From a virus: a stretch of 24,802 nucleotides of DNA. Position 1 is the stretch's first letter; each line of letters begins with the position of its first letter. The notes below the pieces were generated by a model. It was not told the origin of the DNA and made no database searches. It worked only from the letters and a program-made list of their open reading frames with translations. Below are positions 5,459-24,802 of the stretch, one piece after another. The stretch spans positions 1-24,802 of the IMG/VR virus record IMGVR_UViG_3300034072_001694, one strand, 5' to 3'. The position numbers and the translations under genes are program-made.

Positions 5459-5499
5459 TCACAGGCAAAGGGTTACCAGCCTTGGCAACGGGAAGATCG

Positions 5500-9222: not shown

Positions 9223-9249
9223 GGAGCTACGCTCCCTTTCCGGTTGGTC

Positions 9250-9294: not shown

Positions 9295-9296
9295 TT

Positions 9297-11072: not shown

Positions 11073-11076
11073 AGCG

Positions 11077-11190
11077 TTACACCTTCGGTATCCGGGCCAC
11101 GGCAAGGCCCTGCCAGTAGATCAATTCCTCGATGTCCATCGCCAGCAGCTCGGCCAGCGGCCAGTGAAACACCGCGGCGATATCGGCCAT
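11077..11190 (-). CDS. E': gpE' segment (GpE family), made by frameshift
   Basis: A 37-codon frame, MADIAAVFHWPLAELLAMDI then EELIYWQG, which is the GpE/E' motif (FHWP, then L-x-x-MDLEEL). It ends five bases before the T start. The reading frame continues upstream without a stop to the T7 run in gene E, so in the cell it is probably made as the C-terminus of an E-E' fusion of 159 residues rather than alone. The ATG at 11190 is only a formal start; no clear ribosome site precedes it. Confidence 0.8.
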   Translation of the reverse strand: MADIAAVFHWPLAELLAMDIEELIYWQGLAVARIPKV

Positions 11191-11213
11191 GACCTCGCCC
11201 AGTTCGCCAAAGT

Positions 11214-11555
11214 CTACGCGCCGCCAAAGGCCCTGCTGATCGCTTCCTTCATCTCGGCGCTCATAAAAAAACCCTTCACGGCACCGGCCAGCTCGATCAG
11301 GTCTTCCGCTTCCATGTTCTCGATCTCGGCGGCGATCAGCGAAGGCGCGGTAATGCGCGGCAGCAGCACCAGCAGCGAGTTGACGTCGGTCGAGAAAAGG
11401 TCCTCGATCTTGAGCCCTCGCATGTCGCTCGCCTTGGGCTTGCGCAGGCTGATCTCGGCGATGTCGCCGCCCTTGCGCACGATCGGGTTGGAGAGCGTGA
11501 TCTTCACTGTCTGCCCGGCAGGGGCGGTTTCGGGCTTGGCTTCGGCTTCGGACAT
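11214..11555 (-). CDS. E: P2 gpE-like tail assembly chaperone
   Basis: A 113-residue protein with AAGGA upstream of the ATG. It shows the Phage tail assembly (gpE) pattern: VKITLSNPIVRKGGDIAEIS, then LRKPKASDMRGL, then LLVLLPRITAPSLIAAEIEN, then MEAEDLIELAGAVKGFF. In P2 and most long-tailed phages gpE and the frameshifted gpE+E' bind the tape measure and guide tail assembly, with the fusion as the minor form. The slippery run lies at codons 95-97 (11265-11271), 16 codons before the normal stop. Confidence 0.88.
   Translation of the reverse strand: MSEAEAKPETAPAGQTVKITLSNPIVRKGGDIAEISLRKPKASDMRGLKIEDLFSTDVNSLLVLLPRITAPSLIAAEIENMEAEDLIELAGAVKGFFMSAEMKEAISRAFGGA
11265..11271 (-). other. Programmed -1 frameshift site (T7 slippery run)
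   Basis: On the minus strand the frame reads GGT TTT TTT ATG, giving the heptamer T TTT TTT; the P2 site is T TTT TTG. After a -1 slip the frame reads TAT GAG CGC and stays open for 62 codons, across the E stop and through the GpE motif, to the TAA at 11077. Frame and spacing were checked base by base. The expected E-E' product is 97 + 62 = 159 residues. Confidence 0.88.
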
Positions 11556-11633
11556 GTGCGGGGTCCTTCAGATTGCGCGGGGTCTCTTCATCTCCCGACC
11601 GACGGCCCCCGCTGACCGCCGGCCGGAAGTTCG

Positions 11634-12143
11634 TTACGCGCCAATCGCGGCGCGGATTTCGGCGCGGCGGTCCTGCCCGAAGACGATGAAGGTACCGCCG
11701 AGCATGTCGACCTCGATCCAGTCCTCGCCGTCCACGGTCAGCTTGTAGTAGCTGCAGGTGGTCTTGAAGGTCTGCTCGGTATCGTCACCAGGCTTGGCCG
11801 TGCCCATGTCGATCTCGGCGGTGCGGCCACGCGTGACGATCTCGCAGGCGACAACCGCGCCGGTGGAATCGTCCTGATAGGCCCCGGCGAAGCGATTGAG
11901 ATTCGAGGAGAGCGAGGTCGCGCCAAAGTTGCGGAACAGTTCGCGCACCAGGCCGCCCGCCTTGAACTCGAGCTCGATCTTTTCGAGGCCGAAGTCGATG
12001 GGCACCGGGCCGAGCATGCCGCCGGCGCGATAGTCCTCGAGCTTCATGGTCAGCTTGGGCAGGGTGATCTCGGGGATCTGACCCTTGAAGCTGGTGCCGT
12101 CCTCGAAAAAGTTCATGTCCTTGAGCTTGGAAGGGAAACCCAT
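11634..12143 (-). CDS. FII: P2 FII-like major tail tube protein
   Basis: A 169-residue protein with GGAGA upstream of the ATG. It opens MGFPSKLKDMNFFEDGTSF and continues LPKLTMKLEDYRAGGMLGPV, matching the FII family (P2: LPKLTRKLENYRGAGM). TCSYYKLTVDGEDWIEVDM near the end is also typical. It forms the inner tail tube inside the sheath. It lies directly after the sheath gene, the standard order. Confidence 0.93.
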   Translation of the reverse strand: MGFPSKLKDMNFFEDGTSFKGQIPEITLPKLTMKLEDYRAGGMLGPVPIDFGLEKIELEFKAGGLVRELFRNFGATSLSSNLNRFAGAYQDDSTGAVVACEIVTRGRTAEIDMGTAKPGDDTEQTFKTTCSYYKLTVDGEDWIEVDMLGGTFIVFGQDRRAEIRAAIGA

Positions 12144-12167
12144 GGGTTGTCTCCGCTAGAGGGGCTG

Positions 12168-13313
12168 TCAGGCGGCAAGCTGCGCGGAGAGGTCCGCGTA
12201 GTACTTCTCGGTGATGCGCTGGTTGAGCTCGAGGCCTTCGAGCGGGGCTGCGGGGGTGAACTCGTAATCGATCACCAGCTTGCCGGCGGCGAGATCGGCC
12301 TGCGCATTGAGCGCCGGATCGAACCATGCCCGCCCGCCGATCAGTCGCTGCTGCACCACCAGGCCGCGGATGCGCGCGTTGATTGTCTCGAGCACGTCTT
12401 TCACGAGGAATCCGGTGAGCGGCTTGTCCGAGGCCCAGATCAGGCCCGCGGCAATTTCGTCCTGCAGGATCTGCGAGGTTCGCACCGCGCTTTCGAAGGC
12501 GAAGAGTGGCTCGTCGCTGCAGGTGCGGTTGCCCCAATAGATGAACCCGCCCGATGGGCTGCGCACCAGCGTGGTGACTTGCGCATCGTTGAGCGCGGCA
12601 ACGTCGGTGGTCGGGTCCTGGATATCGAAGAACAGGCTCTGCGATATGCCCGTGACGCCGCCAACCGCGACGTTGCTGATCGTCTTGTGCCAGCCTGTTT
12701 CCTCGTCGATCTTGGCCCGCAGGCCCAATGCGCGCGCCACTGCATCCCCCGAAAACTCATTTGACCAGTTTGGCCAGAGCAGCATCAGCTCGCGCGCAGC
12801 GAAGTTCTCGCGATAGGTGACGGCCTCGGCCACGGTGTCGCCTTGTGCAGCGGCATAGACCATGGCGCGCAGCTTTCTCGCCACGGTGGCAAGGGCAGTG
12901 GTAACGGCCTGCGTATCCAGCGCCGGTGCGCCGATCACGCGGGGGCGGTAACCGGTCACGCTTTCGGCGGCGAGCAGGGCGTAGATGCCCGAATAATCGC
13001 CTGCACTGCCGATCACGGCGGCGTCCTGGTCTTCGGCATCCACGGCCACGCGCACCACGATCACGATCGGGCTGCACTGGTCATAGATCGCCTCGAGTGA
13101 AGGCAGCAGCGTGCCGCCGGTGCCGGCCTGACCGATCGCCTTGCGCACATCGGTCACCAAGACGGGCGTATCGAGCGGGAAGGCGGCGTTGAGTGCGTCG
13201 GCCGCCGCACCGGCGGCGGCAGTGGCAGTGCAGACAAGGCCGATAACGCCGCTGGCAACGGCAGCAATCGTGCGGGTGCCTTCGGTGAGCACGTTGGTCT
13301 TGATACCGTGCAT
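12168..13313 (-). CDS. FI: P2 FI-like tail sheath protein
   Basis: A 381-residue protein (P2 FI is 396). The ribosome site GAAGGA lies in the end of W. It opens MHGIKTNVLTEGTRTIAAVA, has FPLDTPVLVTDVRKAIGQAG near 46-65, a variable middle, then FIYWGNRTCSD, then FAFESAVRTSQILQDEIAAG and KDVLETINARIRGLV, followed by the sheath C-terminal motif FTPAAPLEGLELNQRIT. It is the contractile sheath and shows that the particle is of the contractile type. Confidence 0.95.
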   Translation of the reverse strand: MHGIKTNVLTEGTRTIAAVASGVIGLVCTATAAAGAAADALNAAFPLDTPVLVTDVRKAIGQAGTGGTLLPSLEAIYDQCSPIVIVVRVAVDAEDQDAAVIGSAGDYSGIYALLAAESVTGYRPRVIGAPALDTQAVTTALATVARKLRAMVYAAAQGDTVAEAVTYRENFAARELMLLWPNWSNEFSGDAVARALGLRAKIDEETGWHKTISNVAVGGVTGISQSLFFDIQDPTTDVAALNDAQVTTLVRSPSGGFIYWGNRTCSDEPLFAFESAVRTSQILQDEIAAGLIWASDKPLTGFLVKDVLETINARIRGLVVQQRLIGGRAWFDPALNAQADLAAGKLVIDYEFTPAAPLEGLELNQRITEKYYADLSAQLAA

Positions 13314-13317
13314 GAGA

Positions 13318-13680
13318 TTAAGTCCTTCTGGCGATGGGGATGGACAGGCGGGTCAGGGTGTTTGCGGTGGAGCCGGTGCGGGTGCCTTCGATCGTGACGC
13401 TGGCCTGTCCGCTGGCGAACTCGCCCTCGATGCGCACCGTCTTCAGCTCGATGCGCGGCTCCCAGCGCGCGAGCGCGATGGCAATGGCCATCGAGCAGAG
13501 CAGCATGGTCGCAGGGCCGAGCGGACGGTCGAGCAGTTCGAACAGCAGGCAACCGTAATCGCGGCGCATGGTGCGACTGCCCAATGGCGTGGTGATGATG
13601 TCGGCGATCGACTGGGCAAGGTGCTCGTCGCCCGAGACCGCAACGCCGCTGGTGCGGGACATGCCCGTCAGACTGGTCAT
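13318..13680 (-). CDS. W: P2 gpW-like baseplate protein (gp25 family)
   Basis: A 120-residue protein of the GPW/gp25 family. The segment HLAQSIADIITTPLGSRTMR followed by RDYGCLLFELLDRPLG holds the conserved TPxGSRxMRxxYG motif, and LARWEPRIELKTVRI is the usual second block. It is a core baseplate wedge protein that starts sheath assembly. The start overlaps the V stop by four bases and the stop lies five bases from the sheath start. Confidence 0.93.
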   Translation of the reverse strand: MTSLTGMSRTSGVAVSGDEHLAQSIADIITTPLGSRTMRRDYGCLLFELLDRPLGPATMLLCSMAIAIALARWEPRIELKTVRIEGEFASGQASVTIEGTRTGSTANTLTRLSIPIARRT

Positions 13681-14246
13681 ACTGGGGTTCCGGTCTGGCT
13701 TCCGCCTGCTGAGACGCCACTGTGGCGATGGCTCTTCAGGCTCTTGCCGCCGCCGATCACGTCCTCGCTGGCAGTGAGGGTGCCGGTGATCGAGACATCA
13801 CCCTGGATATCCACCCCGCCATCGCTGACGAGCACGGTGGTTGCGCCCGACGGCAGCTGCATCAGCAGCTCGTGCGCGTCGGGATCATAGGAAAATACCG
13901 CGCCATCCTTGAACCGCACCAGCGCGACCGGTTCATCGATCGGCGGGGGATTGGCGTTGGAATGAAGCCCGCCAACGAAGACCCCGGCGCCCAGTTCGCC
14001 ACCGGGGCAGAACAGCAGCCCCTGTTCTCCCACCGCAGGCGGGAGCCAGGCGCGGGTTTCACCCATGCGGGGATGCAGCCAGCGCACTGGCGGGGTAACG
14101 GCATCGTCGCCCCCGCTTTCCGGATCATCGAGGCGAACGGTGCAGGTTCCACCTTGCAGATCGACCGACGCGACAACGCCGACGCGGATCAGGGCGTCAA
14201 CATCGGTCGGGGCATCTTCTGGCGTTCTGGGCATGGCGGCAAACAT
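13677..14246 (-). CDS. V: P2 gpV-like baseplate spike protein
   Basis: About 189 residues from the ATG at 14246; a GTG at 14270 and an ATG at 14234 are alternatives and the true start is unclear. Family features: IRVGVVASVDLQGGTCTVRL, then WLHPRMGETRAWLPPAVGEQ, then LLFCPGGELGAGVFVGGLHS, then a beta-helix-like end with GGGKSLKSHRHSGVSAGG. The final H-R-H-x-G residues match the iron-binding tip HxH of the P2 gpV membrane-piercing spike. It is first in the leftward operon and faces J across a short divergent promoter region. Confidence 0.92.
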   Translation of the reverse strand: MFAAMPRTPEDAPTDVDALIRVGVVASVDLQGGTCTVRLDDPESGGDDAVTPPVRWLHPRMGETRAWLPPAVGEQGLLFCPGGELGAGVFVGGLHSNANPPPIDEPVALVRFKDGAVFSYDPDAHELLMQLPSGATTVLVSDGGVDIQGDVSITGTLTASEDVIGGGKSLKSHRHSGVSAGGSQTGTPV

Positions 14247-14277
14247 GCCGCCCGCATCGCCTCGCGCCACCCTGCTG

Positions 14278-14302
14278 CGTTGTAAGCTCCCGCCTCACAA
14301 CG
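14278..14302. promoter_or_regulatory. Putative late-activator site, copy 2 (CGTTGT-N13-ACAACG)
   Basis: A perfect 6+6 inverted repeat with a 13-base spacer in the short gap between the divergent V and J operons. It is identical in arms and spacing to the copy before the endolysin (19517-19541). The centre (14290) is 57 bases from the J start and 44 to 56 from the likely V starts. One symmetric site could drive both operons; P2 Ogr sites (TGT-N12-ACA near -55) are the model. Confidence 0.7.
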
Positions 14303-14346
14303 CGCGCGGGTGGCGGGATTGCCGTGCTTTGCCGAACACAAGCGTC

Positions 14347-15210
14347 ATGGTCAGTTCCATCGCCACCGGCCCATCCGTCGATCTCTCCGCGCTGCCCGCG
14401 CCGGACGTGGTCGAGCAGCCTTCCTACGAGACGCGTCTCGCCGCCAAGCTCGCGAGCCTGATCGCCCAAGCGCCCGAGTTCACCGCACTGGTCGAAAGTG
14501 ACCCGGCGATGAAGCTGCTTGAAGCCGACAGCTATGACGAGACGGTTCTGGCGCAGGCCTTTGCCGATGCAGCACGGGGCTTGTTGATCGCCTTTGCGAC
14601 CGGGCCGCGCCTCGATCACCTGGCTGCACTCTACGGCGTGGAGCGGTTGCCTGGAGAGAGCGACACCGCCCTGCGCCAGCGCGTGCAGCTCGCGCCGCAC
14701 AGTTTCTCGGTTGCAGGGCCCGAACTCGCCTATGTTTACTGGGCGCGCTCAGCCGATCCGGACGTAGCAGACGCGACCGCAGTGAGCCCGACGCCGGGGC
14801 AAGTGGTGGTCACGGTGCTTGCCGCCTCTGGCAATGGCGTGCCGAATGCGGGTGTACTCAATGCGGTGCGCAATGTCCTGACCGGGCCGGTGCGCCCGCT
14901 CACCGACGAAGTGATCGTCCAGCCCGCCACGCTCGTGCCCTTCGCGATCGAGGCGCAGCTCACTGTGTTTGCCGGGCCTGACCAGGCACTCATCCTGCAG
15001 ACCGCGCAAGCAAGCCTCGCAGCTCACCTCGCCGCTGCGCGCAAGCTCGGCCGCGACGTGACACGCTCTGCCCTGATCGCTGCGCTCCATGTTGCCAACG
15101 TCCAAAAGGTCGAACTGCTCTCTCCGGTGGCCGATATCGTCATCGATCAAAGCGAGATCGCCTCGGTCACGGCTGAAAGCGTCACGATCGCCGGGACGGT
15201 GATCTCGTGA
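14347..15210 (+). CDS. J: P2 gpJ-like baseplate assembly protein
   Basis: A 287-residue protein (P2 gpJ is 302). It opens with VDLSALPAPDVVEQPSYETR, the gpJ hallmark, and has ESDPAMKLLEADSYDE, then PGESDTALRQRVQLA, then SVAGPELAYVYWARSADPDV, then VSPTPGQVVVTVLA and LGRDVTRSALIAALHVANVQ. It is a gp6-like wedge protein that forms the baseplate periphery. No good ribosome site precedes the ATG, and the dyad is close by, so a short-leader or leaderless message is possible. Confidence 0.94.
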   Translation: MVSSIATGPSVDLSALPAPDVVEQPSYETRLAAKLASLIAQAPEFTALVESDPAMKLLEADSYDETVLAQAFADAARGLLIAFATGPRLDHLAALYGVERLPGESDTALRQRVQLAPHSFSVAGPELAYVYWARSADPDVADATAVSPTPGQVVVTVLAASGNGVPNAGVLNAVRNVLTGPVRPLTDEVIVQPATLVPFAIEAQLTVFAGPDQALILQTAQASLAAHLAAARKLGRDVTRSALIAALHVANVQKVELLSPVADIVIDQSEIASVTAESVTIAGTVIS

Positions 15211-15842
15211 CCAGTCTTCTGCCTCCCAACGCCACCGGGGCCGAACGCGCGCTCGAGCAGGCGATGCGTGCCGGGATCGACCTGTCTGCAGTGGGGACCT
15301 TGTGGAACCCGGAAACCTGCCCGCCAGACGTACTGCCGTTCCTCGCATGGGGCGTTGCCATCAGCCACTGGGATTCCACCTGGTCCGAAGCGCAGAAGCG
15401 CGCAGCGGTGGCCGGTGCAATCCCGTTCCACCAGATCAAGGGCACTCGCGCCGCCGTCGAACAGATCCTCGCGCGGTTTCACCCGCTGCTCTCGATCGTC
15501 GAATGGTGGGAAGCCAACCCGCGCCGCACGCCGCACACCTTCGAGGTCCGCGCTCCGGCAGGTCCCGGTGGCATCGATGCCAGCTTCCTCACCACCGAGA
15601 CGGCCGAAGCGATCATCCGCGACGTTGCCGCGGCCAAGCCGCTGCGCGCGCACTTCGATTTCGTCTTTGCCCTCGAAACGGAGGCCAGCCTCTACATGGC
15701 GGGCGGTGTGATCGCCGGGTCAATCCAACGGGCCGACTATGAAGCGGTCCACGATACGAGCCGCGATTGGTCCATCGTGCTGCAGACCGAGGATGGCGAG
15801 CCGATTGCCGATGAAGACGGCACCTTCCTGGAGACTTCATAA
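15207..15842 (+). CDS. I: P2 gpI-like tail protein
   Basis: A 211-residue protein started by GTG that overlaps the J stop (GTGA). It shows the gpI pattern: LLPPNATGAERALEQAMRAG, then LWNPETCPPDVLPFLAWGVA, then DSTWSEAQKRAAVAGAIPFH and QIKGTRAAVEQIL. It links the baseplate wedge to the tail fibres. The C-terminal 45 residues (after FALETEASLYMAGG) are longer than in P2 and end acidic. It is coupled to the fibre gene H (TAATG). Confidence 0.92.
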   Translation: MTSLLPPNATGAERALEQAMRAGIDLSAVGTLWNPETCPPDVLPFLAWGVAISHWDSTWSEAQKRAAVAGAIPFHQIKGTRAAVEQILARFHPLLSIVEWWEANPRRTPHTFEVRAPAGPGGIDASFLTTETAEAIIRDVAAAKPLRAHFDFVFALETEASLYMAGGVIAGSIQRADYEAVHDTSRDWSIVLQTEDGEPIADEDGTFLETS

Positions 15843-16891
15843 TGGGTGCGCTTTACCTCTCGCTGACGGACGCTGGCCTTGCCGCCGTGCAAGGCGCTTC
15901 GGGCAGCGACCCGGTCGTCATCGCTGAATTGGGGCTTACTGCCACACCGTTTACCGTTGCGCCGACACTCACCGCCTTGCCTGGGGAGTTCAAGCGCATC
16001 GGCGCGGTGTCCGGTGTCGCAGCTGCGGCCAACATCACGCACATGACCGCCTACGACACCAGCAGCGATGTCTGGAACGCTACGGGCCTTGGCCTTTGGC
16101 TGGCAGATGGCACGCTGTTCGCGGTCTACAGCTCGAACTCGACAATCATAAACAAGGCCGCGCCCGCCTTTGCCATGGTGGGGTTCGACATTGCGTTCAA
16201 CGCTGATCTCGCCGGCTCGATTGCGTTCGGCGATCCGATCTTCACCAATCCGCCCGCAACCACCGAAATGCGCGGTCTGATCGAGCTGGCCGACGAAGCA
16301 GAGGCACTGGCAGGAGAGGACCGTCTGCGCGCTCTCACCCCCGGGCGGGCGAAGGCAGTGCTCCTCGCATGGCTGTTGGGCTTGGACGGTGCAGGCTCCG
16401 GCCTCGATGCCGACCAGCTCGATGGACAGCACGGGGCGTGGTACGCCGACATCGCGGCCAGGCTCGGCTACACGCCGCTCAATGCCGCAGCCTACACGGC
16501 AGCCGATGTGCTGGCCAAGCTGCTGACCGTCGACGGGGCGGGCTCGGGTGTCGATGCCGACACACTGGATGGTTTCCACGGCGCTGACTATCGCCGCGTC
16601 GTCTCCTCGAACATCGCCGCGAACGGTGGATACATTGAGTACTCTGACGGGTTCAAGGAGACCTGGGGCTGGGTCGATTGCGGGGCGAATGCCTCAGCCT
16701 GGTTTAACGTGCCAATCGCTCACACCGAGTGGATCGTACCGGCTCTCGCCGTCTCGGTGCAGCCGGGTGACGACAACAATTCCGAGAACACTGGCGTCGG
16801 CGTGATCACTCTCGGCCCTCCTACCACCATCGAAATCTACAGCGCGGAGAACTTTACCTCGCGCGTCTTCATCCAGACCAAGGGCAAGTGA
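15842..16891 (+). CDS. H: P2 gpH-like tail fibre protein
   Basis: A 349-residue protein, shorter than P2 gpH (669). The N-terminal 150 residues are the baseplate-attachment part (YLSLTDAGLAAVQGASGSDP, ending near GSIAFGDPIFTNPPATTEMR). GLIELADEAEALAGEDRLRA is the common short fibre-repeat motif. Two copies of a 7-residue-plus motif follow, DGAGSGLDADQLDGQHGAWY and DGAGSGVDADTLDGFHGADY, typical of trimeric fibre shafts. The last 90 residues (YIEYSDGFKETWGWVD on) form a small receptor-binding tip. No gpG-type fibre chaperone is recognised next to it. Confidence 0.88.
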   Translation: MGALYLSLTDAGLAAVQGASGSDPVVIAELGLTATPFTVAPTLTALPGEFKRIGAVSGVAAAANITHMTAYDTSSDVWNATGLGLWLADGTLFAVYSSNSTIINKAAPAFAMVGFDIAFNADLAGSIAFGDPIFTNPPATTEMRGLIELADEAEALAGEDRLRALTPGRAKAVLLAWLLGLDGAGSGLDADQLDGQHGAWYADIAARLGYTPLNAAAYTAADVLAKLLTVDGAGSGVDADTLDGFHGADYRRVVSSNIAANGGYIEYSDGFKETWGWVDCGANASAWFNVPIAHTEWIVPALAVSVQPGDDNNSENTGVGVITLGPPTTIEIYSAENFTSRVFIQTKGK

Positions 16892-16893
16892 CC

Positions 16894-17124
16894 ATGAGCG
16901 AAGCCATGAAGATCACCGTGGGCCGGTTCGATGCCGCCACCGGCACCGTGCCGGTCACCTTCGAGCAGGACGGCAAGAGCCACTCGCGAAGCGTAAACGC
17001 CGTGATCGGGGAGGACGGCAAGCACGATCGCGCCGCCACGCTGGCACGCGTCGACGAGGTCGCAGCTGGTGTGGCCAACAAGTTCGCACTGGGCGTCCTT
17101 GGCGCCAGGGACGGGGAGGCCTGA
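16894..17124 (+). CDS. 76-residue hypothetical fibre-operon protein
   Basis: The start is taken at MSEAMKITVG; a GTG two codons earlier overlaps the H stop (GTGA) and is equally good. The short beta-rich sequence GRFDAATGTVPVTFEQDGKS is followed by a polar helix (GKHDRAATLARVDEVAAG). It sits between two fibre genes. A role in fibre folding or attachment is possible, but no family is recognised. Confidence 0.65.
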   Translation: MSEAMKITVGRFDAATGTVPVTFEQDGKSHSRSVNAVIGEDGKHDRAATLARVDEVAAGVANKFALGVLGARDGEA

Positions 17125-17127
17125 TCG

Positions 17128-19434
17128 ATGGCGAAGATTACCGAATTGCCGGTGGCTGGCCCGCTTTCGGGCACCGAGCCCGTGATCGTGATTCAGGATG
17201 GCGAGGCACGTCAGTCGACTATCGGGCTGGTTGTTGAGGAAGTTGCGCAGCCATTCGTCGATGAGGCGGCGGCAAGTGCCACAGCCTTCGCCCGCACCCA
17301 ACGCCGCAACGTGGCGGTCAATCCTGCCCTTTCCTCCACTGGTGCCGCGACAAGCTGGCAGCTTTCGACCGGCACTGTCCCGACGTATGAGACGCTGCAC
17401 GCCGATGTTCTCAGCGCCTTGGCCGCACTCGACATGCCCGCGCCGGATCGCGCCATCGCGTTTGATACGGGTTCCGGGCTGACTTTCGCCTATAAGAACG
17501 AGCCGCTGACCCCGGCAGACAACAGCCTCTATGTCGTGTGCTATGCGCTTCAGTATTCGAGCGCTGGCGCCTTCAGCGGGCTTGACGCCATCGTTTACAG
17601 CCCAAGCGCCGGCAACCTGATCGGCAAGACGACGGGCTTCGTCTCGCTGTCGTCGACGGTTCGGCTCTATTGGGTGGCTGGGCAGCTTCCTGCATCGGGC
17701 CTTGTGCGTCTGGCTAAAGGCAACAGCGTGGTCGGTTCCGGCGATGCGCAGTTGATGGGTTTCGGAACGTTCAAGTCGGCAACTGCCATCGGCATCAATG
17801 ACGTGCGGCTCTATGACTTCTACCCCGATGTGGTGGACAAGGACGATACCGAGGTCGCCAACCACAAGGCGCTGGCGACAGCGCAGACCAACATTGCCGC
17901 GAACAGTGCCGCGATTGCAGCTCTGCAACTGGCCGCTGCGGCTGATCCGGTGCTTTCGCGCCCCATCGTCGGCTTCGGTGACAGCCGCATCCAGTTCAAC
18001 CGCGACAACTGGCGGACTGCAACATCCTCCGACTTCAAGGGCATCCCCATCGGCGGATATGGCTGGTGGTCGCGTGACGTGACCGCTTCTGTCTCGTCTG
18101 GTGCGGGCACGCTCGAATATCGGGCCAGTGACAAGAAAATGCGCCTGACCCTCGCGGGTGATACAGCAGGCGCGTGGACCGATGTTGTCGCGGGCTACAA
18201 CACGCTTACCAGCGGCAACGGCACCACAACGATGACGTTCCCGCTCAACAGCTTCACGCGACTGCCTGTGAGCGATCAGACGGTCGATCTTGGCGCGCTT
18301 ACTTCGATGTGGCGTGGCTATCGTTCGGACGGCGCGCTTGTCCGAATGCTGGCGCAATGGGGCTGGCCGGATCAGGAGCCTGACATCTACGGCTTCGGCG
18401 GCGGCACTGAAGCAGACTTCCTTGAGATTCTGCCGTGGCTTCGTGCCCAACTCACCGTGCCTTCGACGGTGTTCTATCAAGGGATCACCAACGAAATCAG
18501 CGCAGGGACTTCCGGGGCTACGATCATCAGCCGGATGCGGCAGATCATCGATACCCTTAAAGCCGACGGGCACGAGGTTCTGATCATCGGCAACTGCGCT
18601 CGGTGGGGCACGGCGGTCAGCACGCCGATGACTGCGGGGCAGATCACGGCTTCGCAAGAAGTGCGGGATTGGCTTCTGGGGCAGGAAGGTTTCATCGACC
18701 TGTTTCCGCCAACGTGCGACACGGCGAACCTTGCCGATCTTCGCCCCAAGGCTGGCATCCTGGCGGATACCGTTCACTTCGGGGGCCGTGGGGCACAGGC
18801 GGTCGGCGTTGTCGGCGGAACCTATCTGAAACGGCGCTACGGGGCCGGGACGCGGATCAAGGCATCGGACACGGACAACAAGTGGCCCAGCGGCTTCCCC
18901 GGGCTGACCAGCGGCGGAACGGGCGTCAACGGCACCACAATTACGGGTGTTGTTCCCAATGGCTGGGGCGTCCAGCTTGTCAGCGGGACAGCGGCGGTTG
19001 TGTGTTCGGTCGAAGAGCGCGCCGATGCGCCCGGCGAGTATCTGTTCAATGTCGAGATCACTGCGACAACTGCAACGTTCGTGCAGTTGTCCGGGTCTGG
19101 CGCAACGACCACCCTTGCGGCGCTTGGGTTGGTCGTGGGCGACCGGGTGCGCTTCCGGCCAATCATGCACATCAAGACGGCATCGGGTGTCGATGCGGTT
19201 CGGCCTTACCTGCTGTTCACCGGGCTTACCCCAACCACCACGCTTGAAGCCTGCCGCAGCGGCTTGACCAGCAACGCGGCGGAAGGGTTCGCGGTCGGAG
19301 GGCCGGTTGATCTTTCGACGCCAGCACAAGCCATCCCGACCGGCACAATCAATGTCCGCCCGTTCGTTGACCTCTACGTCGATGCAGGGGGTTCGTTGAA
19401 AGTCGCTCTTGCGGCCAAAATTCTCGTGGCATGA
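17128..19434 (+). CDS. Tail fibre/spike with SGNH-hydrolase domain
   Basis: A 768-residue protein. The N-terminus (MAKITELPVAGPLSGTEPVI) is a known attachment motif of phage fibres and spikes, followed by a short coiled-coil region and a beta-rich domain to about 235. Residues about 275-570 look like an SGNH/GDSL esterase: Ser286 in GFGDSR, Asn455 in YQGITNEI, and Asp547-His550 in ADTVHFGGRG. The block order and spacing fit an esterase or O-deacetylase acting on surface polysaccharide. The C-terminal 190 residues (from GLTSGGTGVNG) are beta-rich and resemble a carbohydrate-binding jelly roll. It follows the H fibre and is probably an enzymatic receptor-binding protein. Confidence 0.8.
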   Translation: MAKITELPVAGPLSGTEPVIVIQDGEARQSTIGLVVEEVAQPFVDEAAASATAFARTQRRNVAVNPALSSTGAATSWQLSTGTVPTYETLHADVLSALAALDMPAPDRAIAFDTGSGLTFAYKNEPLTPADNSLYVVCYALQYSSAGAFSGLDAIVYSPSAGNLIGKTTGFVSLSSTVRLYWVAGQLPASGLVRLAKGNSVVGSGDAQLMGFGTFKSATAIGINDVRLYDFYPDVVDKDDTEVANHKALATAQTNIAANSAAIAALQLAAAADPVLSRPIVGFGDSRIQFNRDNWRTATSSDFKGIPIGGYGWWSRDVTASVSSGAGTLEYRASDKKMRLTLAGDTAGAWTDVVAGYNTLTSGNGTTTMTFPLNSFTRLPVSDQTVDLGALTSMWRGYRSDGALVRMLAQWGWPDQEPDIYGFGGGTEADFLEILPWLRAQLTVPSTVFYQGITNEISAGTSGATIISRMRQIIDTLKADGHEVLIIGNCARWGTAVSTPMTAGQITASQEVRDWLLGQEGFIDLFPPTCDTANLADLRPKAGILADTVHFGGRGAQAVGVVGGTYLKRRYGAGTRIKASDTDNKWPSGFPGLTSGGTGVNGTTITGVVPNGWGVQLVSGTAAVVCSVEERADAPGEYLFNVEITATTATFVQLSGSGATTTLAALGLVVGDRVRFRPIMHIKTASGVDAVRPYLLFTGLTPTTTLEACRSGLTSNAAEGFAVGGPVDLSTPAQAIPTGTINVRPFVDLYVDAGGSLKVALAAKILVA

Positions 19435-19553
19435 TCGCTTCGCTTGGGCTGTTGGCAAGCCGGCTGCAGCTCGACCCCGCAAACGCGTTACAGCCGAACA
19501 AAACTGCGAAGCGTTTCGTTGTGCACCGCGACCTGACAACGCCTGCCACGTGA
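19431..19553 (+). CDS. Possible 40-residue protein
   Basis: An ATG overlaps the SGNH-fibre stop (ATGA) and a frame of 40 codons follows: MIASLGLLASRLQLDPANAL, then QPNKTAKRFV and 10 more. No family and no independent ribosome site. Its 3' part contains dyad copy 3, so this stretch may be only a promoter region. Listed because the coupling matches that of the other genes. Confidence 0.3.
   Translation: MIASLGLLASRLQLDPANALQPNKTAKRFVVHRDLTTPAT
19517..19541. promoter_or_regulatory. Putative late-activator site, copy 3 (CGTTGT-N13-ACAACG)
   Basis: A perfect 6+6 inverted repeat with 13-base spacer, the same arms as copy 2. The centre is 77 bases before the endolysin start. It suggests that lysis genes have their own late promoter, separate from the J operon. 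Confidence 0.65.
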
Positions 19554-19566
19554 TCTCCGCGCGCGC

Positions 19567-19603
19567 GCGAGGCACGCTTTCGGCAAGACGAAAGGTGCCT
19601 CGC
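19567..19603 (+). other. Strong hairpin touching the endolysin start codon
   Basis: Stem GCGAGGCAC/GTGCCTCGC (19567-19575, 19595-19603) continued, after one bulged G, by CTTTCG/CGAAAG (19577-19582, 19589-19594), with loop GCAAGA. That gives 15 base pairs ending two bases before the ATG at 19606. No U-run follows, so it is not a standard terminator, and no ribosome site is visible between it and the ATG. It may control endolysin translation or act at the DNA level. Confidence 0.75.
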
Positions 19604-19605
19604 AG

Positions 19606-20163
19606 ATGCCTATCCCGGCAGGATTTCCAAAAGGCTACGAATGGCTGGCAAGTGTCGGCCAGCTTCCGCGCACGATCGTGGAAGCTATGCGCCTGCACGG
19701 CATTGCCGAAGTTGTTGGAAAGGGCTCCAACGCCACAATCCTGAGCTGGCGCGATGAGCTCAATGCAGCAGGCGTAATGATTGCCGGCTATTCGGACGAT
19801 GATGTTCCGTGGTGCGGACTGTTCGCTGCGATCGCAGCGCATCGCGCAGGCAAGCGTGTTCCTGAAAATCCGCTCTGGGCCCGCAACTGGGCCAAGTTTG
19901 GCTCCCCGGTCGTAAAGGCCGCGTTGGGCGATGTGCTGGTGTTTCAGCGCCCCGGCGGCGGAGGTCACGTCGGCTTCTATATCGGCGAGGACAGCACCGC
20001 ATTCCACGTGCTGGGCGGTAACCAAGGCAACGCGGTGACCATCACGCGCATCCGCAAGGAACGCTGCATCGCCGTGCGGCGCCCGGAATACTCCGTTCCG
20101 CCAGCAAGCGTGCGCCGGTTCGAGCTGGCCGCCGCAGGCGCACTTTCCGTGAACGAGGCCTGA
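19606..20163 (+). CDS. Endolysin-like peptidoglycan hydrolase (TIGR02594 / CHAP-NlpC type)
   Basis: A 185-residue protein of the TIGR02594 family common in alphaproteobacterial phages. Landmarks: YEWLASVGQLPRTIVEAMRL, SNATILSWRDEL, DDDVPWCGLFAA with the likely nucleophile Cys70, PLWARNWAKFG, LGDVLVFQRPGGGGHVGFYI with His121, and HVLGGNQGN with Asn139, then ITRIRKERCIAVRRP. It has no signal peptide, so it should need a holin for export. It opens the lysis cassette, followed by a small membrane protein and spanins. Family members are also used as tail lysins, but the position favours host lysis. Confidence 0.82.
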   Translation: MPIPAGFPKGYEWLASVGQLPRTIVEAMRLHGIAEVVGKGSNATILSWRDELNAAGVMIAGYSDDDVPWCGLFAAIAAHRAGKRVPENPLWARNWAKFGSPVVKAALGDVLVFQRPGGGGHVGFYIGEDSTAFHVLGGNQGNAVTITRIRKERCIAVRRPEYSVPPASVRRFELAAAGALSVNEA

Positions 20164-20164
20164 C

Positions 20165-20257
20165 ATGGGCGAACGGTTCTATTGCGCACTAGCGGTCGCA
20201 ATCGGTGGCGGGGCTCTGTTCGCTTTGATCGACCAACTGCAGGAGGTTTGGCTGTGA
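20165..20257 (+). CDS. 30-residue membrane miniprotein, holin candidate
   Basis: Starts three bases after the endolysin stop and its TGA overlaps the spanin GTG (GTGA). The product has one hydrophobic span, FYCALAVAIGGGALFALI, between a short N-terminus (MGER) and a polar end (DQLQEVWL). No other holin is visible in the cassette, and single-span holins exist, but 30 residues is very short; it might instead be an antiholin or a translational coupler. Confidence 0.5.
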   Translation: MGERFYCALAVAIGGGALFALIDQLQEVWL

Positions 20258-20793
20258 TCCTGCACTTCCTGAGGCAACGCGGACTGCTGCTCGCCCTGGT
20301 GTTCATTGCGGGATGGGGCGCCGGCCTCAAGCTCGAAAACCGCAGCCTCACCAATAGGCTGGCGCAGTGCCAGGAGGGGCGGTCCCTGATCATGGCAGCC
20401 GTGAGTGAGGCCGACGCGCTGGCGCAGGCAGCGCGTGAAGACCAGGAGCGGCGTAGCGCCGACAACGCGAAAAGGAGCGATGCTTCCCATGATCAGGATC
20501 TGGAACGCGCGGCTGATGCTGCTCGCCGCTTTGCTGCTGCCAATCGCATCGCCACTGGCGGGGTGCGCCCCGCGCCAGATCGAAGTGAGAGCATCGAAGC
20601 CCCTGCCACCGCCCCGGGTGGCAGTGCCGGGTTTCCTGCAGAAGTGCCCGCCGATCCCCTCGTGGCTATCACAAGTACTGATCTGCAGACCTGCACCGCC
20701 GCCGTGACCTTTGCCGTGGCCGCCCACAACTGGGCGGCAGGCTTGGCAAACGACCGCGGCAGCGAGCCGCCTGTAACCCCGCTGCTAGAGTGA
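20254..20793 (+). CDS. Rz: i-spanin (Rz-like)
   Basis: A 179-residue protein started by GTG overlapping the previous stop. Layout of an inner-membrane spanin: short N-terminus, one membrane span (LLLALVFIAGWGAGLKL), then a long periplasmic helix (SEADALAQAAREDQERRSAD, RAADAARRFAAANR) and a Pro/Ala-rich region before a cysteine (LQTCTAAVTF). With its embedded partner it would fuse inner and outer membranes at the last step of lysis. It overlaps the o-spanin gene in another frame, the usual nested arrangement. Confidence 0.82.
   Translation: MILHFLRQRGLLLALVFIAGWGAGLKLENRSLTNRLAQCQEGRSLIMAAVSEADALAQAAREDQERRSADNAKRSDASHDQDLERAADAARRFAAANRIATGGVRPAPDRSESIEAPATAPGGSAGFPAEVPADPLVAITSTDLQTCTAAVTFAVAAHNWAAGLANDRGSEPPVTPLLE
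20480..20707 (+). CDS. Rz1: o-spanin lipoprotein (Rz1-like), nested in Rz
   Basis: A 75-residue protein fully inside the i-spanin gene in a different frame. AAAGGAG lies just before the ATG. It has a lipoprotein signal: MLPMIRIWNARLMLLAALLL then PIASPLAGC, with the lipobox LAGC. The mature part is short and rich in proline (KPLPPPRVAVPGF, CPPIPSW), as in lambda Rz1. The frame to 20405 upstream has no support. Confidence 0.85.
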   Translation: MLPMIRIWNARLMLLAALLLPIASPLAGCAPRQIEVRASKPLPPPRVAVPGFLQKCPPIPSWLSQVLICRPAPPP

Positions 20794-20797
20794 AAAG

Positions 20798-20829
20798 GGC
20801 CCTGCCTCATGGCTTCAAGAGGCAGGGCC
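20798..20829. terminator. Hairpin after lysis genes, possible terminator
   Basis: Perfect 11-bp stem GGCCCTGCCTC/GAGGCAGGGCC with a 10-base loop, five bases after the Rz stop. In the plus direction no U-run follows; in the minus direction CTTTT follows, so as an intrinsic terminator it would work better for leftward transcription. It may instead be the first element of a structured leader. Confidence 0.5.
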
Positions 20830-20833
20830 AAGG

Positions 20834-20881
20834 CGAGGGACTGATGAGTCCCTTCGGGTCGCAAGCGCCTGATAGCAGGCG
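20834..20881 (+). ncRNA. Structured RNA candidate (two further hairpins)
   Basis: Hairpin AGGGACT/AGTCCCT with loop GATG (20836-20853, extended by CG/CG around one bulge), then hairpin CGCCTG/CAGGCG with loop ATAG (20866-20881). With the 20798 stem this makes three stable hairpins in 85 bases, in a gap without genes. An alternative fold of the same bases resembles a hammerhead core (CTGATGA at 20841-20847, GCAA at 20861-20864) but breaks one invariant base. It may be a leader element for the gene at 20947. Confidence 0.35.
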
Positions 20882-20946
20882 ATTCCTGACAATCCAGCGA
20901 CAGGCCGGGCACTTTTTCTGGCATCGATGAAAGAAGGACTATCGCT

Positions 20947-21222
20947 ATGGCGAAGACCGAAAACGACATCAAGGTAACGTCGGCGTGGCAGAACCTGGTC
21001 GCGACGTATCCCGGGCTGGCCAACGTATCGGCCTATGTCCAGAACAAAGCCTTCAACAGCGACCGACGGATCCTCGTGGTCTTTTCGCCAAGTGCAGCAG
21101 CTCCCGCGGGCGCTAATGGCATGAGCCTGTCCGCAGGCGACGTGGCGCAAGGCACGGCGGCCAATGTCTGGGTGCGCGCCTTCCGCGAAGACGTCCTGAT
21201 CAATTGCGGCACGACAGACTGA
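20947..21222 (+). CDS. 91-residue hypothetical, likely virion-associated
   Basis: GAAGGA lies nine bases before the ATG. The product is beta-rich: AYVQNKAFNSDRRILVVFSP, then AGANGMSLSAGDVAQGT, then ANVWVRAFREDVLINCG. Small beta-sandwich proteins of this look often stand next to phage fibre and spike genes and may decorate the virion or assist the spike. It lies nine bases before the spike gene, so the two are probably coexpressed. No firm family. Confidence 0.65.
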   Translation: MAKTENDIKVTSAWQNLVATYPGLANVSAYVQNKAFNSDRRILVVFSPSAAAPAGANGMSLSAGDVAQGTAANVWVRAFREDVLINCGTTD

Positions 21223-21231
21223 GGCAAGGCC

Positions 21232-23991
21232 ATGCGCGTTCTCGACTTTCGTGCAGAAGGCAACCGCAAGCGCAGCGTGGTGGTTCGCCGGGGTTGGAGC
21301 CTTGACCTGGTACCGCGTGGACAGCCGCCTGCGGTGCCGAACCTTGGCAACCTCTATCTCTCTGCCAGCACGATCGCGGAAAACAGCGCGGCCGGTACCG
21401 TTGTCGGCGCGATCCTTGGCGCGAGGCCTGCATCGACATTGACGCTCGTCGATAGTGCTGGCGGGCGGTTCGCAATCGCCGGGGCAAACATCGTGGCTGC
21501 TGCCACGGCCACCAACTTCGAGAACGCGACCAGCCACCAGATCACGATCCGCGAAACGCTGCCCGGCTCGGCCAATTCGCCGCGTGAAACAGTGATCAGC
21601 ATCACGGTTACCAATGAGTTCGAGCAGCCCAATCTCTCCGCAATCAGCCTGTCAGCAGCAGTTCTGGCCGAAGGCAGCGCGGCGGGCACAGTAGTGGGTG
21701 TGCTCTTGGGCAAGACCTCCGGATCGGCACTGGCACTTGTCGACGATGCGGGCGGACGCTTCGCGATCTCCGAAGGCAATCTCGTCGCCGGCGCAACCAG
21801 CACCGATTTCGAGACAGCCACAAGTCACTCAGTCACCGTGCGCGAGACGCTTGCGGATTCGGCCAACTCACCGCGTGAAACGGTCCTTTCGATCACGATA
21901 GGCAACGTCTTCGAACAGCCGGCACTTTCAGCTCTCACTCTGTCGAGCAGTACCGCCACGGTGGGAACGAGCACCTCGATCTCGATCAACGGCGCAACCC
22001 CCGGTTCCACGCTTGCAGGCGCAGTCCCCGATGGCATGGTGCTCAACAGCGATCTGCGCACAATCACGGGCACGCCGACGGTCACCGGAACATATGACTT
22101 CACCCTCACCGAGACCCTGGCGGACAGCGTCAACAGCCCGCGCGTTTCAAACGTTGCGGTCACTGTCGCAGCGTCCGCGCCGCAGGCTAACGCAACTTTG
22201 TTTCCCGCCTTTGCTGATCCTGGCTCGACAGGCGTTTGGTCCGATCTTTCAGCAGCAGAGCGTACACAGCGCCAAGCCGTTGCTATGGAGATGTCTGCGA
22301 ATGGCTGGTTCGTAGATCCGGACGCTACGACGTTCGATGACACCGTGACAATTAGTGGTTCAGTCCAGCTAGATAACTGGTTGAACGGGACAGCTGTGGG
22401 CGGCGTAACCCGCAACGTGACGCGTAATCAGAAGATTTTGCTGGACCCTACCGGAAACTACACATTCGCCGCTCTCGCTGCCAACGCAAGGTTTCGTGCT
22501 TTGGACTGGTTAGCCAATGGCAAGATGCTGTTCATCGATGGCCAAGGTGTCAGCTATCGTACCAAGCTGGTTATCACCGGGTGCCGTGGAATATTCATTC
22601 GCAACTTGAAATTGGACGCCAAGCTTTCTGATATCGGCGGGGACCTGTCCTGGTCACCAGGCTGGATCACTACCACCTATACCAACGGCGGCGCTGGGTT
22701 TCAGGTGGGCCAGCTGCTTACAGTGGTTACCCGGCCGTCTGCGGTTTACAAGGATCCGGTGCTGCAGGTCGCGGCAGTCGGCGCTGGCGGGGCAATAACC
22801 GCTGTGACTGTTCTGGACCGTGGCATGATGACTTCCACAGCTTCCATGACGTTCAGCAGCCCTACTAGCACCACAAATGCGACCCTGTCTGGCTCGTTTG
22901 GGACAAATCCGCGCGATGCCCAAGCGTGCACGATCACACGAAGTGCAACCTTTCCTTTGGCCCCAGTTGTGACGTTCGACCAATGCGATGTGGGGGGCGG
23001 ATATCAGACCACTAACCCCCAAGAGTACATCGTTGGCATCAACGTGGACAACTGCGAACAGGTCGTGGTTACGCGCTGCCGCTTCAACGGCTTTCAGACA
23101 GGAATCAAGGCACCAGGATGCCGCCGGATCGTGTTCCACGAAAACGACTTTCGTTGCCAGATCGGCGATAGCCGGTTTGTCACTAATACTCGGGGAACCA
23201 CCACTGTAACAGCCGGCACGCGATTTAACGACCTCTGGCCAGACGGGCTTTGTTACCGTTGGGACAGTCGGAACACGACGCGCGATGCAGCCGACGCGTG
23301 CGATTTGTTGAACAGCGCCGGGCACGACATGGGCCTCGATCAGGAACATTCCGATTGTCAGCAGTCTGGTACCAGCGGTGACACCGGGGGTTACCTGCAG
23401 TGGTCCGAATTCAACATGGCTTATCTGGAACGTACCACATTCAAGGACCGCCCCCTGAAGGGGACACGCTACTATGCTGGCACTCAAGGTGTTTACCTGG
23501 ATGATAGTGGGTTTGCCATCAAGCACGGTTCGTTTGGCGACTTCGCCGCAACGCTGGGAAGCAATGTTTTCACTGCCTGGTCAGGCGATGTCCTTTATGG
23601 GCGTTGCACGGCTGTCCGTGTCGGCACACTCGCTGCTAGTGGCGCCAATGCGAACAACTCGCAGCCGTCCATATATAGCCGAAAGAAGTTCGGCACAGCA
23701 CTCTCGTCAACTCATACGGTGCGCAGCTGTGTGGCTAGCGATATTCGCACAATTTCGTCCGGAACGGTATACGACGTGGGAAACCTAGTTCAGTCCGGGA
23801 ATGTGCTCGCGGACCCCGTGATCAGCGGCGCTTATGCGACAAGCTTCCCAGGCACGTTCAGTGTCGATGGAGAGGGGCGTACCACCTACGCATTCGATGA
23901 TACGGTGGCACGCAGCGAGTTCCGTTCGGGCCTCTGGTCAACCTTCGGCAAATCTGGCGTTGGATTCTTTGATCCTTCGACTTGGGGTTAG
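21232..23991 (+). CDS. Tail spike with Ig/cadherin-like repeats and beta-helix
   Basis: A 919-residue protein. N-terminal anchor (MRVLDFRAEGNRKRSVVVRR). Two near-identical beta-sandwich repeats of about 95 residues (LSASTIAENSAAGTVVGAIL / LSAAVLAEGSAAGTVVGVLL, each ending SANSPRETV), then a putative Ig-like repeat (TVGTSTSISINGATPGSTLA, ITGTPTVTGTYDFTL). From about residue 325 a right-handed beta-helix follows, with ladder-like phrases (FIDGQGVSYRTKLVITGCRG, IFIRNLKLDAKL, NVDNCEQVVVTRCRFNGFQT) as in pectate-lyase-fold spikes. The last 250 residues are the probable receptor or enzyme region; WPDG with nearby acids could be part of an active site, which is unproven. The coding style turns less GC-rich from about 22,250. 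Confidence 0.85.
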   Translation: MRVLDFRAEGNRKRSVVVRRGWSLDLVPRGQPPAVPNLGNLYLSASTIAENSAAGTVVGAILGARPASTLTLVDSAGGRFAIAGANIVAAATATNFENATSHQITIRETLPGSANSPRETVISITVTNEFEQPNLSAISLSAAVLAEGSAAGTVVGVLLGKTSGSALALVDDAGGRFAISEGNLVAGATSTDFETATSHSVTVRETLADSANSPRETVLSITIGNVFEQPALSALTLSSSTATVGTSTSISINGATPGSTLAGAVPDGMVLNSDLRTITGTPTVTGTYDFTLTETLADSVNSPRVSNVAVTVAASAPQANATLFPAFADPGSTGVWSDLSAAERTQRQAVAMEMSANGWFVDPDATTFDDTVTISGSVQLDNWLNGTAVGGVTRNVTRNQKILLDPTGNYTFAALAANARFRALDWLANGKMLFIDGQGVSYRTKLVITGCRGIFIRNLKLDAKLSDIGGDLSWSPGWITTTYTNGGAGFQVGQLLTVVTRPSAVYKDPVLQVAAVGAGGAITAVTVLDRGMMTSTASMTFSSPTSTTNATLSGSFGTNPRDAQACTITRSATFPLAPVVTFDQCDVGGGYQTTNPQEYIVGINVDNCEQVVVTRCRFNGFQTGIKAPGCRRIVFHENDFRCQIGDSRFVTNTRGTTTVTAGTRFNDLWPDGLCYRWDSRNTTRDAADACDLLNSAGHDMGLDQEHSDCQQSGTSGDTGGYLQWSEFNMAYLERTTFKDRPLKGTRYYAGTQGVYLDDSGFAIKHGSFGDFAATLGSNVFTAWSGDVLYGRCTAVRVGTLAASGANANNSQPSIYSRKKFGTALSSTHTVRSCVASDIRTISSGTVYDVGNLVQSGNVLADPVISGAYATSFPGTFSVDGEGRTTYAFDDTVARSEFRSGLWSTFGKSGVGFFDPSTWG
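21352..21915 (+). repeat. Two tandem repeats in the spike gene
   Basis: Two consecutive copies of about 285 bases, easily seen as GCCAATTCGCCGCGTGAAAC near 21570 and GCCAACTCACCGCGTGAAAC near 21860. The copies differ mainly at silent positions, which suggests duplication followed by selection on the protein. They encode the two cadherin-like repeats. Confidence 0.7.
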
Positions 23992-24588
23992 GCGCTTTCG
24001 GCGCCGGAGAGCTGCACCAGCCAGGCCAACGCCAAACACCATCGCTGTCCAAGTCGACGGCTCCGGCACGGCGCTGATGTTGAAACTGAATTGTGCAGTC
24101 GCTCCAGGGGCACCGACAAGCTGCAATTCGCTGCTCAGGTACCTGTTAGTCTCCCAAATGAAGGGGACCCTGCTCACCAGACTGTGAGCCGACCGATTTG
24201 CAGTGCCAATGTCTGTTTCAAGAAAATCTTCAGATATTCCATCGCGCCCACACCAGCGAACGTGGGAGCATGACAAAACCGTCCGGACGTAACTGCTTGT
24301 GAAAGAGCCAGACCCAATCGTCAAATCTGCTTTGAACCTCTTGTTGGGTCCAAAATTGTACGTTGGCACGAACGTATAAGATCCCTTTCCGTCGAGATCT
24401 AAAACCACTGCTCCCTTATGAATTTCCGTACCAGCGTAAGCGGAGCTTGGGGCCAACACTGCGGCGAGAGGGAGACACAGGAGCGCAAAAAGCTTAGAGC
24501 ATTGCGGAGATCTCGGGACTTTGAGCTTTGCCCTGAGGCGCAAACCAAGCATGCGAAACAACCGGATCGGCAAAGCCTTGAAACGCAT
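23938..24588 (-). CDS. PEP-CTERM sorted exported protein with altered C-terminus
   Basis: A 216-residue protein from the ATG at 24588, which has GGGGAG seven bases upstream. Signal peptide SKLFALLCLPLAAVLAPSSA ending near Ala52, then an unrecognised beta-rich domain (KGAVVLDLDGKGSYTFVPTY), then PEP-CTERM: VPEPSTWTAMVFGVGLAGAA with PEP at 175-177 and RRRKR ending at 199. Exosortase would cut and anchor it at the surface. Seventeen further residues follow the basic cluster and are encoded exactly in the 54-base overlap with the spike end, which is odd because such proteins normally stop at the basic cluster. It is host-like cargo or chromosome at the prophage edge. Confidence 0.78.
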   Translation of the reverse strand: MRFKALPIRLFRMLGLRLRAKLKVPRSPQCSKLFALLCLPLAAVLAPSSAYAGTEIHKGAVVLDLDGKGSYTFVPTYNFGPNKRFKADLTIGSGSFTSSYVRTVLSCSHVRWCGRDGISEDFLETDIGTANRSAHSLVSRVPFIWETNRYLSSELQLVGAPGATAQFSFNISAVPEPSTWTAMVFGVGLAGAALRRRKRLTPSRRIKESNARFAEG

Positions 24589-24676
24589 AAAAATCTCCCC
24601 GAGTCGCCGCACGAGGGGATGCTTTCATTGCGTTAACCAAGAGTCGAGTCGGCGAATCGATCCGCAACGGCGGAAA

Positions 24677-24802
24677 GGTCGTGTCCCACGGGGTGGTGTA
24701 GGAAGGTTTCTCTGAGAGGGTGGCCACCGTCGATCTTCTGGTAGGGTTCGGATGCGAACTCGAACCTGGAGAAGAAGACGATGACCGACGACAGAATGGC
24801 CC
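24677..24802 (+). mobile_element. Start of IS256-family-like insertion sequence (cut by window)
   Basis: The stretch from about GGTCGTGTCCCACGGGGTGG precedes a transposase start by about 100 bases, which is where an IS256-type end would be. The outer boundary is inferred, because the right end, the inverted repeat and the target duplication are outside the window. It lies less than 100 bases before the PEP-CTERM start. Confidence 0.5.
24781..24802 (+). CDS. IS256-like transposase, first seven codons
   Basis: ATG preceded by GGAGAAGAAGACG; the visible residues MTDDRMA match the start common in IS256/mutator-type transposases of sphingomonads (MTDDRMAL). Only seven residues are seen, so the call depends on the strong ribosome site, the flanking sequence and this short match. 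Confidence 0.5.

Follow-up and report, generated by a model that had tools for sequence, protein, structure and literature searches.

In phages T5 and BF23, distantly related receptor-binding proteins are encoded next to non-homologous Llp proteins, which block the cognate receptor (PMC4728585, PMC9586334; these papers and those below are cited from the portions of their text that were available). PEP-CTERM proteins, whose C-terminal tails had fewer than 10 extra residues in 87% of the cases of Haft et al. 2006 (PMC1569441), have in other bacteria been linked to exopolysaccharide and to the formation of flocs (PMC9012009); a phage carrying such a protein could therefore alter host aggregation and phage adsorption. 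The present analysis concerns a PEP-CTERM gene in the IMG/VR virus record IMGVR_UViG_3300034072_001694, the entire length of which (24,802 bases) was analysed and is referred to as the window. As judged from sequence comparison, this gene is probably cargo in a P2-like sphingomonad prophage, located tail to tail with a tail spike gene and forming an exchangeable cassette with the variable C-terminal part of that spike.

Spike and probable cargo genes in three related phages

A run consisting of a 91-amino-acid (aa) gene, a spike gene, a convergent gene, and a conserved element was common to the window and two other phages, G426 (L202/L290) and G424 (L283 and L287-L289). In the window, the 91-aa open reading frame (ORF; nt 20947-21222, + strand) directly precedes the spike gene and is conserved with it, sharing 100% aa identity with its counterpart in G426 and 65% with that in G424; it had no match in Pfam, PHROG or NCBIfam. 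The spike ORF (nt 21232-23991, + strand) ends in TAG. Its N-terminal part, about aa 1-315 (nt 21232-22177, + strand), is conserved and would serve as the left anchor of the cassette, with DNA identities of 93% to G426 until 22177 and 84% to G424 until 22155, and an identity drop inside the gene at about 22160-22180. The 93% identity to G426 covered 20633-22177 as a whole, reaching spike residue 315, and the G424 spike resembled that of the window until residue 336; about residues 1-315 are shared by the three spikes at 87-94% identity. The C-terminal part (nt 22178-23991, + strand) is variable and had no counterpart in G426 or G424, the spikes of which gave only weak mutual matches past the shared part (E-values of 0.002 and 0.009). 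DNA similarity to these phages, ending inside the spike gene at about 22155-22177, returned at 24575-24599, upstream of the PEP-CTERM gene (nt 23938-24588, - strand).

Past spike residue 315, G426 has a different spike C-terminus, a convergent gene for a 413-aa protein, an element resembling window 24599-24665, and then S, R, L, M, and N. The order in G424 is head genes to S, the 91-aa gene, the spike gene, a convergent PEP-CTERM gene, the element, and J-I-H; its PEP-CTERM gene encodes 194 aa and has its stop 4 bp from the spike stop. The cargo proteins of the window and G424 shared the PEP-CTERM motif only (48% over 44 residues), and the latter was assigned as PEP-CTERM by NF035944 (47.5 bits, cut-off 35) and PF07589 (40.9 bits). 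The G426 cargo protein had no Pfam match, a weak match to the type I secretion target domain TIGR03661 (19.7 versus a cut-off of 17.6, E-value 0.0015), and one weak match in a PDB sequence search, to the lectin codakine (E-value 0.053). The G424 and G426 cargoes had no match in a search of phages. Export from the cytoplasm is predicted for all three cargoes, more strongly for some than for others. GC contents of the three cargo genes were 0.543, 0.527, and 0.518 versus 0.648-0.659 for phage genes, while those of the three spike C-terminal parts (0.566, 0.583, and 0.605) were between the two.

Spike tip and cargo adjoin and vary together across the three phages, the spike presumably being the receptor-binding protein. 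Most likely, the spike C-terminus and the PEP-CTERM gene constitute an exchangeable cassette spanning about 22,177-24,600. Recombination at two anchors, one being the N-terminal coding region of the spike gene and the other the upstream element, would exchange the tip and the cargo as a unit; the corresponding pattern was seen in three phages, and recombination is what we infer from it.

Over 10824-17263 and 19411-20602, the window was 94% identical to a 9.8-kb record, L002, the name of which carries the same metagenome number as G426; L002 may be a piece neighbouring G426.

PEP-CTERM protein and its C-terminal tail

The PEP-CTERM gene encodes 216 aa from ATG 24588, a start supported by conservation of the start region with G424, where it is common to both; the mechanically called ORF begins at GTG 24612 and encodes 224 aa. 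Its GC content was 0.543 versus 0.648 for window 7805-17263. The sorting motif (nt 23998-24072, - strand), which comprises PEPSTW, a hydrophobic helix and the start of a basic cluster, was matched by PF07589 at residues 181-205 of the 224-aa ORF (34 bits, cut-off 20.7), and the protein also scored above the cut-off of NF035944 (38 bits versus 35). At the N-terminus a hydrophobic stretch ending in AYA-G, a candidate signal peptide, was noted by eye in the translation, and no canonical lipobox was seen by eye.

For comparison of the C-terminal tails, 29 loci of best matches were taken, 27 of which gave tails; these were 30 PEPxxW tails, and one chance match (L183, + strand) was dropped, leaving 29. 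The comparator tails stop 22-33 residues past the W (45 in one), whereas in the window RRRKR is reached at 19 and the stop at 36. None of the 29 stops at the basic cluster. The preliminary description had regarded RRRKR as the normal end of the protein and had supposed that the original stop was lost; the former is not borne out by these tails, and the latter need not be so, as all comparators continue beyond the basic cluster. Counted past the model end, the comparators have 3-14 residues (26 in one; median 8) and the window protein has 17; at least 10 residues were present in four of the 29 and more than 17 in one.

Homologues of the cargo and spike proteins

The viral relatives used below came from a search with the tail-sheath protein, which gave 215 viral relatives, 80 of which were retained; the best 17 were studied, with stretches obtained from 13. 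For the whole PEP-CTERM protein no homologue was confirmed in viral contigs, genome contigs, phages or plasmids. Matches occurred in 110 of 397 genomes from the family of Novosphingobium silvae (G018, the genome of L107), which we take to be Sphingomonadaceae; most of them covered just the C-terminal motif, and some were longer but weak alignments with 26-37% identity. A smaller genome search gave matches in 4 of 10 genomes. The PEP-CTERM motif was found above cut-off in none of the 17 tail-sheath relatives and below cut-off in two. PADLOC gave no match for the cargo proteins, a PDB sequence search gave none for the window PEP-CTERM protein, and Rfam gave none on 23800-24802. Exosortase (PF09721) was detected above cut-off in 124 of 149 genomes of the G018 family, which may or may not include the host of this record.

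The C-terminal part of the spike scored 20.4 bits with Beta_helix, below the cut-off of 25.9, and its C-terminus had no match in phages, plasmids, viral contigs or the 397 genomes, in searches partly without a positive control. The whole spike was found in none of the 17 tail-sheath relatives, in a search without a positive control. The first 58 aa of the spike matched G426 and G424 among viral contigs, plus two weak matches in large phage records, and gave no match in the 397 family genomes or in 195 genus genomes, both searched without a positive control. The N-terminal region of the spike (window 21232-22362) contains internal repeats, residues 133-377 matching residues 36-281 of the G426 spike, and resembles proteins, cadherin-like or hypothetical, from large phages of Caulobacter and Brevundimonas.

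Conserved element preceding the probable cargo gene

The conserved upstream element (nt 24575-24665, - strand) is likely the right anchor of the cassette and perhaps a promoter region. It was 89% identical over 85 bp to that of G424. G426 has two copies in tandem before the cargo gene (L202:5294-5339 and 5410-5476); identity to the window was 78% over 67 bp for one and 85% over 46 bp for the other. The core of the element, CTCGACTCTTGGTTAAC, is located at 24632-24648, and GGGGAG lies ahead of the ATG. This core occurs once in the window, where 0.04 occurrences would be expected within 3 mismatches; it was found exactly in 3 viral contigs and in none of the 397 genomes of the G018 family. One of these contigs, L284, had no other similarity to the window, and its exact copy of the 17-mer core was set aside as a chance match. 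Allowing up to 8 mismatches of 30, four distinct copies of the element were found in 295 sequences, belonging to three phages and all upstream of cargo genes, with no other site. GACTC sites recur in the element. GANTC is the site of an alphaproteobacterial methylase, and a role of the GACTC sites in regulation is a guess.

Genome organization and position of the probable cargo gene

Mapping of the window proteins onto the stretches of the relatives gave a general order of early genes and repressor, D-X-tape measure-E-FII-FI-W-V, J-I-H, fibres and lysis genes, S, R, and head genes. Nine relatives (G005-G009, G011, G012, G014, and G015) were mapped across this region. In all nine, S, R, and the head genes come after the block of J and its neighbours; S adjoins the J/fibre/lysis block in eight, while in G015 it is beside V, next to J. 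Judged by gene order, the PEP-CTERM gene thus appears to occupy the point after which S and the head genes should come, and the cargo slot would be flanked by the J-fibre block on one side and by the S-head genes on the other. These latter genes are missing from the window owing to the end of the record.

Of 15 records, 11 contained an integrase gene: 8 had it at the early-gene end, 3 (G007, G014, and G015) had it past the head-gene end, and none of the 11 had it inside the fibre-S stretch. Neither an integrase nor a tRNA gene was found in the window, and the integrase is probably just past the left start of the record. An excisionase-like gene was observed at the extreme left end (window 2-283, - strand).

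The preliminary description had suggested a cargo insertion or a prophage edge at the PEP-CTERM gene. A host-like cargo is probably what is present, while an edge is unlikely: the equivalent gene lies between phage genes in G424 and G426, S, R, and head genes follow in all nine mapped relatives, and the window has no integrase or tRNA gene. The right side of this record itself ends in an insertion sequence (IS).

Several observations weigh against a PEP-CTERM cargo exchanged together with the spike tip. Only three such cassettes are known, and that of G424 is between S and J, on the opposite side of the J-I-H block from that in the window. The right-hand phage genes of this record are missing, and the internal position of the cargo is deduced from relatives. 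GC content at third codon positions (GC3) in the spike C-terminal parts of G426 and G424 (0.706 and 0.727) was nearer to the spike N-terminal part than to the cargo (0.563 and 0.523), and composition therefore gives no proof of a common source for tip and cargo. A consensus scan found no promoter for the cargo gene. The tail of the window protein exceeds 28 of the 29 comparators in length, and dramatically long PEP-CTERM tails may be non-functional, according to the portion of the paper available (PMC1569441). A weak PHROG match to a minor tail protein (E-value 0.045) was taken as chance, and AlphaFold models computed without alignment, with predicted local distance difference test (pLDDT) values of 33 and 33.5, were discarded as unusable.

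Possible function of the cassette

Within an exchangeable cassette, the PEP-CTERM gene would probably be transcribed in the prophage from its own upstream element, and the product could be exported by Sec and sorted by a host exosortase to the envelope or exopolysaccharide. The sorted protein would then change the surface of the lysogen.

A further explanation, compatible with the cassette, is that the two genes form a functional pair, with the exported protein acting as partner to the variable spike tip, for instance by masking or altering the surface structure bound by the spike so that sister phages no longer adsorb to the lysogen or the dying cell. We regard it as possible, with the odds against it. 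The joint difference of tip and cargo between the same two anchors in three phages is consistent with such a pair, as is the predicted export of three cargoes, two by the PEP-CTERM motif and one by a weak type I secretion match (E-value 0.0015). There is also the precedent of T5 and BF23, in which llp adjoins the receptor-binding gene and the BF23 partner does the same job as that of T5 without homology to it (PMC4728585, PMC9586334). However, there are three cases only, and adjacency between two anchors would suffice for co-replacement. Known pairs are not always co-inherited either: in the T5-like phage DT57C, the receptor-binding gene has diverged from that of BF23 while llp is nearly identical (PMC4728585, available portion). 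Moreover, the cargo is not a canonical small lipoprotein.

A more specific proposal may be made, which we consider slightly less probable again: in temperate P2-like phages of sphingomonads, the receptor-binding spike tip and the exported surface protein of the convergent gene would be inherited as a matched pair and switched at fixed anchors, the protein countering the target of its own spike via the host exosortase or type I secretion. If spike and shield were so combined, the phage would coat the lysogen using the exosortase or type I secretion of the host itself.

Overlap between the spike and PEP-CTERM genes

The PEP-CTERM ORF on the - strand has its stop at 23938 and overlaps the spike ORF tail to tail by 54 bases. 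This convergent overlap (nt 23938-23991, - strand) holds the last 17 PEP-CTERM codons together with the stop, in antisense orientation to the end of the spike gene. Codons of RRRKR are at 23992-24006, the first bases beyond the spike gene, and the 17 residues that follow (LTPSRRIKESNARFAEG) are the antisense of the spike end. The earlier coordinates for this arrangement, with RRRKR exactly at the spike boundary, were confirmed from the ORFs, and the position of 199 given for the end of the cluster is correct, since translation from ATG 24588 gives 216 aa with RRRKR at 195-199.

From this arrangement it had been proposed that 23991/23992 is a join, marking a prophage edge or an exact insertion point at which a host gene lost its stop. 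This is very unlikely to be so. In its favour are the exact coincidence of the end of the basic cluster with the spike boundary and a tail exceeding those of 28 of the 29 comparators; however, the comparators end beyond the basic cluster, and an antisense run of 17 codons is expected by chance. The antisense codons coincide exactly with those of the spike gene, and their frame can be closed solely by TTA, CTA, and TCA codons, which account for just 14 of the 919 spike codons; the probability of at least 17 open antisense codons in this register was 0.77, and the run is thus unremarkable. In the same register, 14 of 17 other window ORFs, chosen by the analyst, were open at least as far. Furthermore, no exchange boundary was found at 23991/23992, the similarity limits being at about 22155-22177 and 24575-24599, and the GC contents of the window spike C-terminal part (0.566) and the PEP-CTERM gene (0.543) are similar. 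The internal position of the equivalent gene in two relatives and the lack of an integrase and a tRNA gene in the window also argue against a join. On sequence grounds, the 54-bp overlap is an incidental tail-to-tail overlap, and a tail-to-tail overlap had been mistaken for a recombination join. It is conceivable that a small old deletion within the cassette fused the two gene ends.

As a candidate terminator, a hairpin at the gene junction of the window folded no better than those of shuffled sequences (z-scores of 0.16 and 0.09). The spike-cargo junction of G426 (L202:3945-3990) has a strong hairpin on both strands (z-scores of -4.62 and -4.51).

IS256-family element at the record end

The record ends in the left end of an IS256-family element (nt 24677-24802, + strand), with a 28-bp terminal repeat at 24677-24704 and the start of the transposase gene; 126 of 126 bases were identical to elements in two sphingomonad plasmids. 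The plasmid elements measure 1359 bp, carry perfect terminal repeats of 28 bp and show 8-bp target duplications; the identity of the window to them starts at exactly the first base of the terminal repeat. The sole sharp foreign junction found is at 24676/24677, and the record stops 126 bases on, inside the element. Repeated elements are common sites of assembly breaks, which probably accounts for the record end at this element. The IS starts 11 bp past the conserved upstream element; an effect on the PEP-CTERM gene was considered and dropped, the transposase gene being directed away.

That the junction between the spike and PEP-CTERM genes is itself a chimeric assembly is most improbable: the record does end in a repeated element, but two further records, including one that carries a PEP-CTERM gene, have the same layout and the same upstream element.

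Other features of the window and its relatives

A 410-aa ORF (window 6272-7504, - strand), lying between the genes on the repressor side and gpD where the GC content is low (about 0.51-0.58), had no match in Pfam, NCBIfam, PHROG or PADLOC and is possibly a second cargo gene. A further fibre-like protein, the second in the window, is encoded at 17128-19434 (+ strand) and matched a PHROG of lipase type (phrog_6102); the sibling record L002 matches its first 47 residues only, and it may be a second swapped tail module. Among the relatives, the tail-sheath match of G005 equals that of Novosphingobium meiothermophilum L108 in length and identity. G005 is a P2-like prophage record, and next to its Dam/portal end, in L084:1-2464, a cas2-like gene and a CRISPR-like repeat array were noted by eye in translations.

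Comparison with known systems

A search of open-licence literature on PEP-CTERM or exosortase together with phages, limited to titles and abstract openings of the papers listed, found no phage-borne PEP-CTERM gene named, and none is reported in the available portions of PMC12642866 and PMC4886054. The cassette described here suggests a concrete connection between the receptor-binding proteins of temperate phages and the surface-protein cargo that such phages carry.

The PEP-CTERM gene resembles the cargo of P2-like prophages (morons, or lysogenic conversion genes) in that it is one gene of low GC content, is preceded by a conserved region of its own and probably occupies a variable slot flanked by conserved late genes; as with such cargo, the gene was not found in the 17 relatives. 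Unlike those morons, it would encode a product with an exosortase sorting signal and appears to be exchanged with the spike C-terminus. With substrates of EpsH/exosortase in Gram-negative bacteria, the protein shares PEPxxW, a hydrophobic helix, and a basic cluster near the C-terminus, preceded by a diverse N-terminal part (PMC1569441, available portion), but it differs from the usual substrates in being carried by a phage, in its longer tail, and in that no close homologue was found. The locus is similar to the module of T5 and BF23, formed by a receptor-binding protein and Llp, in that a gene for a presumed receptor-binding protein adjoins one for a predicted exported protein, both vary among related phages, and no homology among the partner proteins is required (PMC4728585, available portion). 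It differs in belonging to a temperate P2-like phage, in the convergent orientation of the genes, and in having PEP-CTERM or type I secretion proteins in place of a small outer-membrane lipoprotein, receptor blocking being the feature of T5 and BF23.

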